Shown: positions 16,375 through 36,210 of the stretch, in pieces
Layout: each line of letters begins with the position of its first letter
Numbering within the stretch: the first letter of the stretch is position 1
Origin: Eubacteriales bacterium
Lineage (GTDB): Bacteria > Bacillota > Clostridia > Christensenellales > Aristaeellaceae
Assembly (NCBI GenBank): GCA_030532025.1
Contig: JAUNLY010000004.1
Location: 1 to 36,210, forward strand
Direction of reading: 5' to 3'
DNA: 36,210 nt
Notes under the pieces: generated by a model
Seen by the model: the letters and a program-made list of their open reading frames with translations, nothing else
Told to the model about the DNA's origin: nothing
Databases searched by the model: none
Program-made: the position numbers and the translations under genes

Positions 16375-16503
16375 ATACTAATCCAAATCGTTAATGCATA
16401 GAGTTACGCAGGATTTTTTCTTTTTTGCAAAGCCGACTGAGAGAGGTGAAGCAAAAATGGAAAAAGACAAGTTTATCAAAGCATTAAGGTTTAAGATTAG
16501 TAT
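16375..16503 (+). repeat. Dispersed palindromic repeat, copy 2 (129 bp)
   Basis: Terminal inverted repeat ATACTAATC (16375-16383) / GATTAGTAT (16495-16503), then inner pair TTAATGC / GCATTAA, then complementary tracts (GGATTTTTTCTTTTTTGC near 16410-16427 against GCAAAAATGGAAAAAG near 16451-16466). The whole unit can fold as one long imperfect hairpin. It lacks about 29 bp present in the middle of copy 3. A GAGGTGA-preceded frame, [17 protein letters not shown], runs 16457-16510; the frame is also open from ATG 16394 (38 residues). It fills the space between the liv terminator and the metK stop codon, four bases from the latter. Confidence 0.8.
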
Positions 16504-20117: not shown

Positions 20118-21209
20118 TCAGCTTATAACGCCCGCTTTAGCTCGCAAAATACAATCCGGTTTGGCGCCACGCAGGTCGTCCATGTCTGTGCAGGTAATAA
20201 TGGTTTGTGTAGCTTTTAGGCACTGTATAAGCCTTACGCGGCGTATTTCGTCAAGCTCGCTCAAAACATCGTCCAAAAGCAATATGGGTGCTTCCTTGTG
20301 CTTTTTATATAATATGTCCATCTCTGAAAGCCTTAAAGCAAGCGCTGCGGTGCGAATCTGCCCCTGCGAAGCAAAGGACTTCATGTCTTTATCAAGCAGC
20401 AACATGCTTATATCGTCCCTGTGAGGGCCGTATGAGGTGCTCTGCCTGCGTATATCGTCCGCGCGACTTTTGCTCAGCAATTTATACAGGTCTTCTGCAG
20501 GCGATAGACTGTTTTTTAGCTGACTGTCGTACTCTATTGTAAATGTTTCGTTTTTCTTGCCGGATATATTGTTGTACTGTTCTGCTGCAAGGCCGTTTAG
20601 CATTTCTATTGCTTTGCGCCGTCTTTCAACCAAGGGAGCACATTTTAGGCTTAATTGCTCGTCCCAAATATCTAAAACATCAGCTCTTTCTCCCTTGCCT
20701 ACGGTTTTTAAAAGTGCATTGCGCTGTTTTAACACGTTGTTATAGCTTTGAAGAGCAAAAAAATATGCAGGGTCGCTTTTTGAAAGCAGCATATCTATAT
20801 AGCGGCGCCTTAGTTGGGGGCCGCCTTTTATAATATCCAAATCTTCAGGCGCAAACATAACACAGGTTACATAGCCCATCATGTCGCCTATGCGGGGAAC
20901 TATTTTGCCGTTTACATATATAAGCTTTTTACGGCGGTTTTTCTTATAAATACGCACGCCCACTTCGTTTAAACCGTAGCTGCGCATAACCCTTGCATGC
21001 ACGCCGCAGGTTTCAAAATCCGTGCGGATCATATCCCTGTCGTTATTGGTGCGGTGGCTCTTGCCAAGGCAACACAGGTGTATTGCCTCCAAAAGGTTTG
21101 TTTTGCCCGCGCCGTTTTCTCCCATAATTACGGTAATGCCATTATGCGGCGTAAACGAAAGCTGATGGTAGTTCCTAAAATCATGCAGGCGCAATTGTGT
21201 AAGCAGCAT
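20118..21209 (-). CDS. recF: DNA replication and repair protein RecF
   Basis: A 363-residue SMC-like ATPase that helps load RecA at single-strand gaps (RecFOR pathway). LTQLRLHDFRNY opens the protein, Walker A is IMGENGAGKTNLLEAI, the signature is FASQGQIRTAALALRLSEM, and Walker B is PILLLDDVLSELD. Full length. Its ATG directly follows the TAG of rlmH, so translation is probably coupled. recF usually sits with dnaA, dnaN and gyrB; none of those is here. It ends 4 nt from the convergent kinase-like gene, with no terminator between. Confidence 0.96.
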   Translation of the reverse strand: MLLTQLRLHDFRNYHQLSFTPHNGITVIMGENGAGKTNLLEAIHLCCLGKSHRTNNDRDMIRTDFETCGVHARVMRSYGLNEVGVRIYKKNRRKKLIYVNGKIVPRIGDMMGYVTCVMFAPEDLDIIKGGPQLRRRYIDMLLSKSDPAYFFALQSYNNVLKQRNALLKTVGKGERADVLDIWDEQLSLKCAPLVERRRKAIEMLNGLAAEQYNNISGKKNETFTIEYDSQLKNSLSPAEDLYKLLSKSRADDIRRQSTSYGPHRDDISMLLLDKDMKSFASQGQIRTAALALRLSEMDILYKKHKEAPILLLDDVLSELDEIRRVRLIQCLKATQTIITCTDMDDLRGAKPDCILRAKAGVIS

Positions 21210-31135: not shown

Positions 31136-31780
31136 TTATTTTCTAAGCTTTGCGCTGCTTGCGCATACAGCCCATATCTTAGATGTAATGCAGCTTGAAG
31201 TAAAGTATACTGCAACTGCAGACAGCATAAGCGGTACAGTAACTGCAAGAAGTTTTTGGCCGCCAAAGGATACAGCCACTAAAAACACGAGAGATAACAC
31301 AAGTACGGTAAGCCTGCTTTTAATGCTTTGCATGGGTGCCTCATCCGCTATTTGCGCGAAGGGTTTTTCTTTCCTTGAGGTTGTGCGCATTAATTGATCC
31401 GCACTCCTTAACACCGTTGTGGATTGTACAAAGCTAAACACGAATGTAAGCAATATTATAATCGGGAATACAAGAGCCACGGGAAGTTCCGATACACCCT
31501 TTATAACAAGGCTTGCGATAGAAGCTAAAGAGAAGCCGAGCAATAGGTCGTTAAGTGTTGCAAGTGCAATCGCCACAGCATACGCACGGTTTATGCGTAT
31601 AAAGCCGTATATAAAGGCAAATACAACAGATGCAAACATGCACAGCCAAAGTTGAGAAAATTCTACGGAATATTGAGCGGAACCTGAAAACGGCAAGCTA
31701 ATACTTGTGAGCGCCAATATAACGCCTGCTAAAATTACCACAACAGAAATAGCCAAGGGTTTTTTAAGCTTATTAATCAT
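31136..31780 (-). CDS. SecF-like protein, short and degenerate
   Basis: A 214-residue membrane protein with about six hydrophobic helices, following the SecD-like gene with a 4-nt overlap as SecF normally follows SecD. Typical SecF is ~300 residues with a sizeable extracytoplasmic domain between helices 1 and 2. Here that interval is only about 20 residues (FSGSAQYSVEFSQ). The hallmark helix-4 motif (G-Y-S-V-N-D-T followed by D-R-I-R-E) should fall near FSFVQSTTVLRSADQLMRTT, where neither the Asp of NDT nor DRIRE is seen. The soluble tail after it (ADEAPMQSIKSRL) is still recognisable. Assigned from position and helix pattern; it could be non-functional in proton-driven secretion or have another role. 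Confidence 0.65.
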   Translation of the reverse strand: MINKLKKPLAISVVVILAGVILALTSISLPFSGSAQYSVEFSQLWLCMFASVVFAFIYGFIRINRAYAVAIALATLNDLLLGFSLASIASLVIKGVSELPVALVFPIIILLTFVFSFVQSTTVLRSADQLMRTTSRKEKPFAQIADEAPMQSIKSRLTVLVLSLVFLVAVSFGGQKLLAVTVPLMLSAVAVYFTSSCITSKIWAVCASSAKLRK

Positions 31781-33099
31781 GCTTTTGCCTCCTTTATTTT
31801 ACCGGTAATGTAAAGGCTGTTGTTTTCACCAAAAAGTGTGAACACTTGGTTTAAAAGCAAGCGCAGAGCGAGCTGTACGACCACTAAGTCGATCAACAAG
31901 CCTATTGCAAACAACTGCATAAAGCCGCCTATTACGCCCGTATCCATTATTATAAGTATAAGAGCTAAAGATAATGACGCCGCCATAAGGTCTAGCCCTG
32001 TGCGTCCTGCACCTGAGAAGCTGTCTTTAAGAGCCTGCTTTGCAGCTCTTCCACGGCCCAAATCCTCCGCCATGCCCTTAAACAGGATTGCTATTGCAAA
32101 GGAAGCCACCATCAAAGAAAACACTACAGCAAGCAAAGATGAGAGTGTTATTCCGCTTTTGGTAAGTGCCATGAAAAGCCAGCTTAAAAGTGCCACAAGT
32201 GCAAGGCACCATGCCGCCACAAAACCTGCCAGCCTATATTTAACTATGAACATCAGGCATACCACGGCTAAGGCTATCCAAAGAGCTGCTACCACTTTAT
32301 TTAAGGCATTTTCGCCCAAAAGAGGAGCGCCCGCTTCGCTATTTTCGCTTTTTAAGTTTACAGGGAGTGCACCGCTGTTCATTAAAGCGGCGTTTTGGAA
32401 GGCTTGATCAAACGTAAAGCCCGGTATAGATGCACCGCCCTGCGTTAACGGCTCTGAAATGCCGGCACTGACGAGCTCTACACCGTCTCTTTTTACGATC
32501 ATTTGATGGTTTACCATTTCGGTTGTCTTGTCCGCGAATATTTTCTTGCCTTCTTCGTCAAGCTCGAAAGCTAAAAACCAAGAACTACCGGTCTGGTCGG
32601 CAGGAGACAAGTTAGCCCTTGTGATATGTTCTCCCGTTAAAAATACATTGCCTTCTTCGTCGGCAAACTCAAATACGCCCTTTTGCGTAAGCAAGTCTAT
32701 ATTTTCCTGCGTAAGAGCATCCTTTGGCAAGGTAACGGTAACAGAATTGTCTTCCCCTGCGGTAACGCTTACACCTGTAACGCCCAAGGTAGAAAAGCGT
32801 TTGGACAATATGCGTATAATTTCTCCACGGTTTTCCTGAGAGAGCTCTGCGGCATCATCGCTTAGCGTAAGCCTTGCGACCTGTGTTTCGCCAAAATCCG
32901 CCCCCGGAGGGAGTGCGCTTTTCCATTCGTATTGTTCCCCAGGCGTGGGTATCCACGGTAAGAGCTTGTAAAGCCCCATGCTATCAAGCTTTTTGCCCGT
33001 AACGCCAAGTACGCCGGCAACTACCGTAAGCAAAAGCAGTACTACAAGTGTAAGTGCCGCTATCGCTTTTTTGTTGACTTCTATTTTTGAATTAGCCAT
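31777..33099 (-). CDS. SecD-like protein-export membrane protein, degenerate
   Basis: A 440-residue protein. TM1 (~13-35) is followed by an extracytoplasmic region with the SecD P1 pattern (IIRILSKRFSTLGVTGVSVT, LTQKGVFEFADEEG, FLAFELDEEGKKIFADKT), then the GALPVNL segment, and about five helices from ~275 on. SecD assists Sec-dependent export using proton flow. The conserved helix-4 motif G-M-A-V-D-A-N-V followed by F-E-R-I-R-E should align with SLMVASFAIAILFKGMAEDL, in which the essential Asp appears replaced by Phe and ERIRE by KGMAE. ATG 33099 follows AAAGGAA; an in-frame ATG 15 nt upstream has no site. Confidence 0.8.
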   Translation of the reverse strand: MANSKIEVNKKAIAALTLVVLLLLTVVAGVLGVTGKKLDSMGLYKLLPWIPTPGEQYEWKSALPPGADFGETQVARLTLSDDAAELSQENRGEIIRILSKRFSTLGVTGVSVTAGEDNSVTVTLPKDALTQENIDLLTQKGVFEFADEEGNVFLTGEHITRANLSPADQTGSSWFLAFELDEEGKKIFADKTTEMVNHQMIVKRDGVELVSAGISEPLTQGGASIPGFTFDQAFQNAALMNSGALPVNLKSENSEAGAPLLGENALNKVVAALWIALAVVCLMFIVKYRLAGFVAAWCLALVALLSWLFMALTKSGITLSSLLAVVFSLMVASFAIAILFKGMAEDLGRGRAAKQALKDSFSGAGRTGLDLMAASLSLALILIIMDTGVIGGFMQLFAIGLLIDLVVVQLALRLLLNQVFTLFGENNSLYITGKIKEAKA

Positions 33100-33130
33100 A
33101 TTTATTCCTTTCAAATTAAAATAATATTTT

Positions 33131-33183: not shown

Positions 33184-33513
33184 CTACCCCGCGCTTTCGT
33201 GCATTAAAAACGCTTCATAAGCGCAAAGGTAATAGGCCTTACAGGACAAGACCCTGCCGTTTGCGTCTACCATAGGTCTATTTAAAGGAGCCATAAAGGC
33301 TATACCGTAAAGTATGCAAACAACGGTAAAAACAGGGCTTAGGCTTTGGGGTTGCTCAAGGCTTATGTAAGTGGGATAAGGGTTTTTAAAAAACAGCTTT
33401 TCCTGTACATTGTTTTGCGCAAAAGCCGTTTCCGACTGCGTTACCACCATGCAGCTAAGAAGCAATAGCACAGCAACAGAAAGAAGGCCCAACAAAAGCA
33501 ATCGTTTTGTCAA
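33184..33513 (-). CDS. Hypothetical small lipoprotein-like membrane protein
   Basis: A 109-residue protein. The start is TTG 33513, fixed by AAGGAGGG 5 nt upstream. The N-terminus (TKRLLLLGLLSVAVLLLLSC) is a signal peptide with a plausible lipobox LLSC at Cys21; cleavage after TAFA is the alternative. A second hydrophobic stretch (SPVFTVVCILYGIAFMAPL) lies at ~58-76. The C-terminus (ANGRVLSCKAYYLCAYEAFL) has two cysteines. I do not recognise a family. It has its own promoter, lies upstream of the secD-like operon on the same strand, and downstream of the DnaA-box region. Confidence 0.65.
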   Translation of the reverse strand: MTKRLLLLGLLSVAVLLLLSCMVVTQSETAFAQNNVQEKLFFKNPYPTYISLEQPQSLSPVFTVVCILYGIAFMAPLNRPMVDANGRVLSCKAYYLCAYEAFLMHESAG

Positions 33514-33543
33514 GTTATCCCTCCTTAGTTACGCAATGCGAAC

Positions 33544-33572
33544 ATTATACATTACCGCCCCTTTTATGTAAA
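33544..33572 (-). promoter_or_regulatory. Promoter of the small lipoprotein-like gene
   Basis: Minus strand: TTTACA (plus 33567-33572), 17-base spacer, TATAAT (plus 33544-33549). Near-consensus. About 30 nt before the start codon. Confidence 0.8.
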
Positions 33573-33576
33573 GAAT

Positions 33577-33632
33577 AAGCCCATATATACATACCCTTTG
33601 CAGGGAAATATACGCCCCGATTATATGGGCTT
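33577..33632. repeat. 11-bp inverted repeat in the DnaA-box intergenic region
   Basis: AAGCCCATATA (33577-33587) and TATATGGGCTT (33622-33632) are perfectly complementary, enclosing 34 bp with a smaller CCC/GGG hairpin. No T-run follows on either strand, so it does not look like a terminator. It sits just upstream of the small lipoprotein-like gene's promoter. Confidence 0.6.
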
Positions 33633-33639
33633 AAGTTAA

Positions 33640-33892
33640 ACATTAACAGGATATCAACAGTGAAACTTGCATAAATACATAATATATGTATAATTATGAG
33701 CAATTCACCTGTGTTTAGCTGATTGTTGTGTGAATTTCTTGTAAATATTATTCGGTATGTGGCAGTCGCAACAATCCACTTTATCCACAATATCCACTTT
33801 TTATCCACATTTATTGTGCCTTATGGCCTTTCTTCCTCTTTTTAATGTTTCTGTAACAAGCTTGAAGCACCAAAAACATAAAGTTATCCACA
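33640..33892 (+). promoter_or_regulatory. DnaA-box cluster with adjacent AT-rich DNA (candidate oriC or DnaA control site)
   Basis: Three perfect TTATCCACA boxes lie at 33781-33789, 33801-33809 and 33884-33892, all in the same orientation, with a partial TATCCAC at 33791-33797. Very AT-rich DNA flanks them (about 33660-33705 and 33895-33950), either of which could be an unwinding element. No gene fits between 33632 and 33961. dnaA and dnaN are not in the window, although recF and rlmH, often origin-linked, are 12-13 kb away. It may be the chromosome origin, a split origin, or a DnaA titration or regulatory site. Confidence 0.7.
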
Positions 33893-33961
33893 GGTGGTGT
33901 TTTTGTATATTTTTTGTGTATATTCTTCGCTTTATGCAATATAAATGCCAGCGACAAGTAC

Positions 33962-33992
33962 AAAAAAGCCCCTGCGGGTTTAATCGCAGGGG
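33962..33992 (-). terminator. Terminator of the sugar ABC ATPase gene
   Basis: CCCCTGCG (33969-33976) pairs with CGCAGGGG (33985-33992). On the minus strand the stem is followed by C and six T's. It lies 16 nt after the stop codon of the ATPase gene. Confidence 0.9.
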
Positions 33993-34008
33993 TATATTGT
34001 GCTTAAAC

Positions 34009-35130
34009 TTATCTGTTAAGCAGTGTGTTTTCGGTTTCTTTGTCGAAGAAGTGCAGGCGGCTGGTGTCCATAACGACAACTATGTCATCGCCTGTTCTGG
34101 TTGCGGTGCGGGGGTCAACACGGGCTATAACGTTGTCTTCCTTGCCGGAGGTGCTCATGTAGAGGTAGGTTTCTGAACCCATCTGCTCGGTTACGTCTAC
34201 ATGTACTTTAAACTGCGCTTCGGGGCTGGCTGCAACGATTTCGGGGTTGTCGGAGATATTTTCCGGACGTATGCCCATTGTTACTTCCTTGCCGATATAG
34301 CTCTCGTCTACGAATTTTTTGACTTTTTCGTCGGGAACCAATATCTTGCTGTCGCCAAAGAGCGCATATACCTTGCCGTTTTCTGCGGAGAGTTTTACGT
34401 CAAAGAAGTTCATCTGGGGGCTGCCTATGAAGCCTGCAACGAACTTATTATGCGGATAGTCGTAGTTGTTTTGGGGTGTGTCTACCTGCTGGATAAAGCC
34501 GTCTTTCATTATGACGATGCGGGTACCCATGGTCATAGCTTCAGTCTGGTCGTGTGTAACGTAGATGAAGGTTGTCTGCAGGCGTTGGTGCAGTTTGGTA
34601 ATTTCTGTACGCATGGCTACACGCAGCTTTGCGTCCAAGTTGGAGAGCGGTTCGTCCATAAGGAAGACCTTGGGTTCACGGACGATTGCACGGCCGAGTG
34701 CAACACGCTGGCGTTGGCCGCCTGACAATGCCTTTGGCTTTCTGTTGAGAAGATGTTCTATATCCAGAATATGAGCTGCGGATTCGACACGGCGCTTGAT
34801 TTCGTCCTTGGGGGTTTTACGGAGCTTAAGGCCGAATGCCATGTTGTCAAACACGGTCATGTGGGGATAAAGAGCATAGTTCTGGAAAACCATGGCGATG
34901 TCCCTGTCCTTGGGGGCAACGTCGTTAACGAGCTTGTCGTCAATGTAGAGTTCGCCGTCGCTTATTTCTTCAAGGCCTGCGACCATGCGGAGGGTTGTGG
35001 ATTTACCGCAACCGGAGGGACCGACCAAAACGATAAATTCTTTGTCTTCGATTTCAAGGCAGAAGTCGCTTACCGCGGTAACTCCGCCGGGATATATCTT
35101 GTACAGATGTTTCAGTGATAAACTTGCCAT
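34009..35130 (-). CDS. MsmX/UgpC-type carbohydrate ABC transporter ATPase
   Basis: A 373-residue ATPase of the MalK/UgpC/MsmX group, which energises carbohydrate importers from the cytoplasmic side. Walker A is [18 protein letters not shown]-loop [20 protein letters not shown], signature [15 protein letters not shown], Walker [17 protein letters not shown] and H-loop [11 protein letters not shown]. The C-terminal ~130 residues form the TOBE/MalK regulatory domain. ATG 35130 follows AGGAGGC. No permease or binding-protein genes adjoin it, as for MsmX, which serves several sugar importers at once. That makes it a possible partner for transporters activated by the YesMN-type system, but this is speculative. 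Confidence 0.93.
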
Positions 35131-35296: not shown

Positions 35297-35316
35297 GTAT
35301 AAAAGGAGTGAGTAGC

Positions 35317-36072
35317 GTGAACAATTCCATAGAGCAATTAGCAAACTACATGCACACTGCCAAATACATAGTATTTTTCGGAGGCGCCGGCGTATCCACC
35401 GAAAGCGGTATACCTGATTTTCGTAGCCAAGACGGGTTGTACAACACAAAATGGAAAGACCCGCCGGAAACAGTGCTGAGCAGAACTTATTTTAACCGCA
35501 AACCCGAAAGCTTTTTTATGTTCTACCGAGAAAAAATAATACATGAAAACGCAAGACCCAACGAATCGCATAAAGCGCTTGCAAAGCTTGAAGAAATGGG
35601 CAAGCTTAAGGCTGTTATAACGCAGAACATAGACGGCCTGCACCAGATGGCCGGCAGCAAAAACGTGCTTGAATTGCACGGATCCATACTTAAAAACCAC
35701 TGTGTCAAATGCCATAAGTTTTATCCGTTGGAAAAAATAAGCTCCTCAAAAAGCATACCTTACTGCGACTGTGGCGGCATTATAAAGCCCGATGTGGTGC
35801 TGTACGAAGAAGCATTAGACCAAGAAGTTATAGAAAAAACCATTATGCACGTAAGGCGTGCAGATTTACTTATAATAGGCGGAACTTCTCTTACCGTATA
35901 CCCCGCTGCCGCATTTGTAAGGGAGTGCAAAGGAAAAATAGCCATTATAAACCGAGATACAACCTATATGGACGCATACGCCGACATAGTAATAAACGAT
36001 AAGATAGGCGAAACGCTCAAACATGCAATGGAAATTATGGATAAAATAAATCATACTAATCCAAATCGTTAA
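35317..36072 (+). CDS. NAD-dependent protein deacetylase, Sir2 family
   Basis: A 251-residue cytosolic sirtuin that removes acyl groups from lysines, consuming NAD. FFGGAGVSTESGIPDFRSQDG is the NAD-binding signature. QNIDGLHQMAG and ELHGS carry the catalytic His region. The zinc site is HCVKCHK with YCDCGG, and PDVVLYEEAL and GTSLTVYPAAAFV complete the Rossmann site. I start it at GTG 35317, 9 nt after AGGAG; an in-frame GTG at 35308 would directly touch that site. The last residues (HTNPNR) and the stop TAA come from the left end of repeat copy 3, so the element appears to have replaced or extended the original C-terminus. Confidence 0.95.
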   Translation: MNNSIEQLANYMHTAKYIVFFGGAGVSTESGIPDFRSQDGLYNTKWKDPPETVLSRTYFNRKPESFFMFYREKIIHENARPNESHKALAKLEEMGKLKAVITQNIDGLHQMAGSKNVLELHGSILKNHCVKCHKFYPLEKISSSKSIPYCDCGGIIKPDVVLYEEALDQEVIEKTIMHVRRADLLIIGGTSLTVYPAAAFVRECKGKIAIINRDTTYMDAYADIVINDKIGETLKHAMEIMDKINHTNPNR

Positions 36073-36210
36073 TGCAAAGAGAAACGCAGGATTTTTTCTT
36101 TTTTGTAAAGCCGAATGAAGGAGGCGTAGTGGAGCTACACTGACTGAATGAGGTGAAGCAAAAATGGAAAAAGACAAGTTTATCAAAGCATTAAGGTGCA
36201 GGATTAGTAT
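36053..36210 (+). repeat. Dispersed palindromic repeat, copy 3 (158 bp)
   Basis: The terminal inverted repeat is the best of the three: ATACTAATCC (36053-36062) and GGATTAGTAT (36201-36210), a perfect 10-bp pair, with TTAATGC / GCATTAA inside. It has the fullest middle, including GGCGTAGTGGAGCTACAC, absent from copy 2. A TGAGGTGA-preceded frame beginning MEKDKFIKALR starts at ATG 36164 and runs off the window. The left end overlaps the sir2 3' end by 20 bp and provides its stop codon. Confidence 0.8.

Follow-up and report, generated by a model that had tools for sequence, protein, structure and literature searches.

A conserved DnaA-box array with a recurring layout, predicted to lie outside the replication origin, in Christensenellales genomes

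Three identical DnaA boxes packed into a short AT-rich stretch, on a contig other than that of dnaA, raise the question of whether they mark a chromosome origin that has moved away from dnaA or a site where DnaA is bound for some other end. They lie in the window analysed here, one whole contig (C115, 36,210 bp) of the genome G000 (1,609,229 bases in 150 contigs). As the earlier note had described, the exact 9-mer TTATCCACA is repeated in the same orientation on the + strand at 33781-33789, 33801-33809, and 33884-33892, 112 bp in all. Two degenerate boxes adjoin the first perfect one on either side: CAATCCACT (33772-33780, +), read directly from the sequence and taken as offset 0, is abutted by the perfect box at offset 9, and ATATCCACT (33790-33798, +) follows at offset 18. 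The second perfect box stands at offset 29 and the third at offset 112, 83 bp past the previous box or about eight helical turns. In relatives, the offset-0 box is closer to the consensus (for example ATATCCACA and CTATCCACA), and the offset-18 box reads TCATCCACA in G002 and G005 and is missing from G003 and G004. Exact TTATCCACA sites number 39 in the 1,609,229 bases of the genome, versus 22 for the reversed pattern, and three of them would fall this close with a chance of ~1.4e-4, given 39 sites scattered at random, which agrees with the earlier judgment that the cluster is unlikely to be accidental. The array is also the sole locus in the genome where perfect same-strand boxes are paired at 30 bp or less.

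The AT-rich, intergenic setting previously claimed for the boxes was likewise confirmed: GC content is 0.354 in 33514-34008 versus 0.431 for the whole window, and the two open reading frames overlapping the array stretch (33545-33808, −, and 33757-34176, +) gave no family match in a Pfam search. A structured RNA was considered for the same stretch and rejected, the only candidate, a tmRNA piece of 13.1 bits (gathering score 47), being below threshold and at the same place as the malK terminator. The immediate neighbours are, as already noted, neither dnaA nor dnaN, which are on contigs C71 and C95, respectively. On the left, an operon reading leftward begins with a 109-aa gene (33184-33513, −) that has no family match and that, among 40 relatives searched, was found in genus members only; it continues with a SecD-like gene (31777-33114, −) and then SecF-like, recJ, and relA/spoT genes. 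A promoter-like site of this operon, TTTACA-17-TATAAT (33544-33572, −), is the same in 5/5 genus genomes, and its −35 element lies 122-546 bp from the array across these five. On the right is a gene for a MalK/UgpC-type ABC ATPase (34009-35130, −), past whose 3′ end the array is situated in the window genus as well as in g36 (another genus), with a terminator-like hairpin of malK (33969-33992, −) between the two; a Sir2 gene (35308-36072, +) lies beyond. Elsewhere in G000, a second, looser cluster of boxes occurs at C11:12445-12511 (L129). It has 9/11 spacing, with a perfect box in inverted orientation 58 bp farther along, and the ~1 kb in which it lies, flanked by mntP-like and addA-like genes (named by eye), has no clear genes. 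The identical sequence TATCAAAGCATTA is found at window positions 16474-16486 and 36181-36193, with similar letters on C11, and is possibly a dispersed repeat.

The small 109-aa gene led to the orthologous locus in four of the five genus relatives searched, and a box array was present at all four, so that it is kept in five of the six genus genomes (G000 included). In an alignment of these five arrays, 25 of the 27 perfect-box columns are invariant (8/9 in each of the boxes at offsets 9 and 29 and 9/9 in the last one); of the 74 columns separating the last two boxes, 2 are invariant, as are 6 of the 60 columns upstream. The last two boxes are spaced by 83 bp in all five, and the distance from the array to the malK stop stays at ~105-145 bp in the genus. 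In G002 (C18, L011), a 230-bp MITE-like insert with near-identical inverted ends sits between the array and the operon promoter, and the array is intact. The exception is G001, the most divergent member of the genus, which has no array at secD and no match anywhere in its genome to the strict or relaxed patterns described below; its secD operon (C19, L156) adjoins rpsF-ssb-rpsR (named by eye). A link of the array with secD throughout the family was rejected, a perfect box being found upstream in none of the 26 secD loci (L148-L173) outside the four array-bearing ones. The earlier note had named a lack of conservation among relatives as evidence against its proposal, and this is refuted by the alignment. 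We conclude from these sequence comparisons that the window array is real and under selection.

What the earlier note had proposed in the first place was that the array is a chromosome origin displaced from dnaA, a reading favoured by how closely the perfect boxes are grouped and by their AT-rich surroundings. The genes dnaA, dnaN, and recF usually form one cluster. In G000 they are on three contigs, with dnaA on C71, dnaN on C95, and recF in the window at 20118-21209 (named from the sequence by eye and by a RecF/RecN/SMC Pfam match), and the origin signature of the genus stayed with dnaN, not with dnaA. Directly upstream of dnaN we found DnaA boxes, a GCCCC-type sequence, five DnaA-trios (CTACTACTACTACTA), an AT-rich tract, and the dnaN start; this signature was read in 5/5 genus genomes (G000, G001, G002, G003, and G005, with six trios rather than five in G003), the contig of G004 ending there. 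DnaA-trios are 3′-GAT-5′ according to the excerpted text of PMC8287927, and the CTA repeats on this strand are their complement. In all five array-bearing genus genomes, array and dnaN are on separate contigs. In G006, a genome of a different genus, dnaA has remained next to dnaN, with a similar box-trio signature between them. Among other array-bearing genomes, 20 dnaN loci were fetched and one 168-bp fragment was left out; the signature is present at 10 of the remaining 19, and the other nine, some of them shortened by contig ends, show no CTA run by the pattern used. By contrast with this complete signature, DnaA-trios are absent from the arrays themselves, both in 28 array segments (27 distinct), where not even CTACTA occurs, and at 30 order-level array loci. 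An origin at dnaA was also considered and rejected, with one perfect box just upstream of the gene in G000 and one or two in the five genus relatives; CTACTACTA does not occur on the dnaA contigs, except once in G003:C48.

Nucleotide skew points in the same direction. As just 2.3 kb of the window contig is left past the array, skew was measured in four genus relatives (G002, G003, G004, and G005), in all of which both the raw GC skew and the strand-corrected third-position skew keep the same overall sign on the two sides of the array, apart from a local dip confined to the first 5 kb, and show no reversal of the kind expected at an origin. The change of gene strand at Sir2, which the earlier note took as a possible sign of replication leaving this area, is local: in the relatives, coding and skew are both one-sided again within 5-15 kb. 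Ten arrays from other genera had enough genes for this measurement; strand-corrected skew does rise across five of them (G209, G148, G084, G284, and G211, with t of at least 2.7), in favour of an origin, and does not across the other five. In G209, G148, G084, and G284, dnaN is on the array's own contig at ~1-12 kb, and its proximity explains the rise; in G211, dnaN is present as a fragment only, on another contig. Skew at dnaN was discarded as independent proof of the origin, being mixed (rising in G002 and G003 and flat in G001). Of the features of a BUS-type oriC, the array thus has the box cluster, but neither the DnaA-trios nor the skew reversal, and the absence of trios and of a skew change means that there is no sign of unwinding at the array. 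We therefore rejected it as an origin, a role that we consider highly improbable: judging from the signatures present, the window array is not oriC, and the origin of the genus is the one immediately before dnaN, on a different contig. Only part of the earlier interpretation survives, since its alternative of a DnaA-titration or regulatory cluster is favoured by the evidence whereas its origin reading fails.

Outside the genus, a recurring layout is seen in three families of Christensenellales, with boxes at 0, 9, and 21, then at ~63 and/or 105. Of 300 family genomes, 27 contain a strict version of this pattern, at 31 places in all, and 273 have no match; its reversed control matches once. A relaxed version, which fixes only three TCCACA cores and allows five gap lengths, occurs at 65 places in 55 of 396 genomes of the order, and its reversed control has no matches. 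These relaxed matches concentrate in the window's family (21/34 genomes), a second family (22/33), and a third (7/11), with 5/318 in the other families, and the 9/12 spacing is exact at 56 of the 65 places. The copy number is not always one, as the places in the 55 genomes exceed one per genome by 10; at G250:C51:115584-115685 (L196), two strict arrays on the same strand, 74 bp apart, form a doubled module. With boxes at offsets 0, 9, 18, 29, and 112, those at 0 and 18 being weak, the window array does not follow the commonest layout; its offset-29 box is the counterpart of the offset-21 box of its relatives. A final T in the offset-0 and offset-18 boxes keeps it out of the 65 places, and the relaxed match found in G000 is the looser C11 cluster.

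In 51 arrays, further same-strand boxes gather 62-65 and 104-107 bp from box 1. Measured from box 3, these outlying boxes are at 41-43 and 83-86 bp, in phase with a helical repeat of 10.5 bp. The Rayleigh R is 0.73 for 49 boxes in 36 arrays and 0.62 (p 3e-4) when collapsed by gene context, in a test that left out 15 of the 51 arrays (mostly g41 arrays that carry additional boxes upstream or lack any box 40-150 bp on) and that was applied to the same arrays in which the phasing had been noticed, only the 10.5-bp period being preset.

Despite this constant geometry, the genes flanking the arrays vary between lineages and share no common function. An Amidase_3 gene is the neighbour in 12 genomes, including one from a second family, an FGGY kinase in eight, TsaD in six, and a rubrerythrin-like gene in five; malK is found in eight (five of the window genus and three of g36, the latter with rlmH-recF on the side opposite malK), and a low-molecular-weight phosphatase and mnmE in three genomes each, partly shared. 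The neighbours in G284 are dnaN-recF, and a tblastn search with the G000 proteins placed neither dnaA nor dnaN within 1.5 kb of the array at any of 30 order-level loci. Since the exact geometry is kept across families while the gene neighbours change, selection is likely to act on an ordered DnaA complex away from oriC in its own right.

The same gene contexts bear on the main rival to a role in initiation, which is control of the adjacent operon. On this view, the leftward operon (genes for the small protein, secD, secF, recJ, and relA) would be transcribed more or less strongly when DnaA occupies the array, which would couple stress signalling and repair to the replication cycle. The position of the array upstream of an operon whose TTTACA-17-TATAAT site is kept in 5/5 genus genomes would suit such a promoter, as would the left gene reading away from the array in five of the seven recurrent contexts, a count too weak to decide for promoter control; in the low-molecular-weight phosphatase context the gene reads toward the array. 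However, the interval between array and −35 element varies from 122 to 546 bp, and in G002 it accommodates the 230-bp insert with inverted ends, whereas the distance to the malK stop on the other side is steady at ~105-145 bp. The putative targets also change with the lineage (amidase, FGGY kinase, rlmH-recF, rubrerythrin-like gene, or the secD operon). On balance, we regard operon control as unlikely to be the function of the array.

A cluster of DnaA boxes outside oriC, which would bind DnaA as an ordered complex and thereby tune initiation, is the reading that we prefer and that is probably correct. Like the DnaA-box clusters (DBCs) of B. subtilis, the locus has several DnaA boxes clustered beyond chance outside oriC. 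The DnaA of G000 is canonical, with all domains including the box-binding one (PF08299) and 8btg as best PDB match, and boxes of this sequence should therefore be bound by it. DnaA would bind the tight group of boxes first. Boxes that abut or are spaced by 12 bp, together with further ones on one face of the helix, suggest that the outlying boxes would then be drawn into one ordered, cooperative complex. The array may hold or switch DnaA at a place whose copy number doubles with the passing fork, and may in this way set the amount of free active DnaA available for oriC firing, similarly to the B. subtilis clusters or, as regards role, to E. coli datA; if the adjoining operon is affected as well, that would be of secondary importance.

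Two roles are known for loci of this kind, titration in the B. subtilis clusters and nucleotide switching at E. coli datA and DARS. The array could act in the manner of datA or DARS, its ordered complex changing the DnaA-ATP/ADP state. The fixed spacing and helical phasing suggest that geometry has been selected and not box number alone, and a geometry conserved beyond what titration needs keeps such switching in play; moreover, the cores of the E. coli DARS consist of three boxes with conserved spacers, as stated in the excerpted text of PMC4585315. Against this, a consensus scan found no IHF site (WATCAANNNNTTR) in 33500-34100, the nearest match in the window being more than 2 kb away, and the studied Gram-positive B. 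subtilis is described as devoid of datA and DARS in the part of PMC13220808 available to us. We thus hold nucleotide switching to be quite improbable, more so than operon control. A broader proposal would make the array a replication-control locus common to the Christensenellales: a DnaA platform in its own right, phased with the helix (0, 9, 21, 63, 105) and of fixed geometry at varying chromosomal places, acting as a datA- or DARS-like DnaA switch; we put it forward as a speculation, conceivable although rather doubtful.

Gram-positive DnaA-box clusters outside oriC have so far been credited with a weak titration role only. The preferred reading, a cluster that tunes initiation, bears on how bacteria without datA or DARS limit initiation to once per cycle, and the array offers a defined DNA fragment for direct biochemistry. 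It appears to belong to a known kind of element, the non-origin DnaA-box cluster, in a fixed form for which we found no description, nor any report of such an array in Christensenellales or their Gram-positive group, in the accessible portion of the open-licence PMC literature.

Among known systems, BUS-type oriC (boxes 6/7 and DnaA-trios of B. subtilis) shares with the array its tandem DnaA boxes, abutting or spaced by 3 bp, but the array has no DnaA-trios beside it and G000 has its own origin of this type upstream of dnaN. E. coli datA resembles it in layout, as a non-coding locus with five boxes away from oriC whose spacing is under selection; unlike the array, where none was seen, datA needs an IHF site between its boxes. 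DARS1 and DARS2 of E. coli are comparable by description, their particular spacings apart, in having a three-box core with conserved spacing at a non-coding locus, whereas the array is without known Fis or IHF sites. In B. subtilis, removal of six DnaA-box clusters outside oriC led to early initiation (Okumura 2012, as cited in the excerpted texts of PMC5295017 and PMC13220808), although the same excerpt of PMC5295017 calls their role in initiation not significant. The array is like these DBCs in comprising several consensus DnaA boxes outside oriC on a Bacillota chromosome, with a proposed role in setting free DnaA. It differs from them, in a comparison by description, in usually occupying one place per genome instead of six and in its form, a tri-box of constant 9/12 spacing whose outlying boxes stand helical turns away and which recurs in three families.
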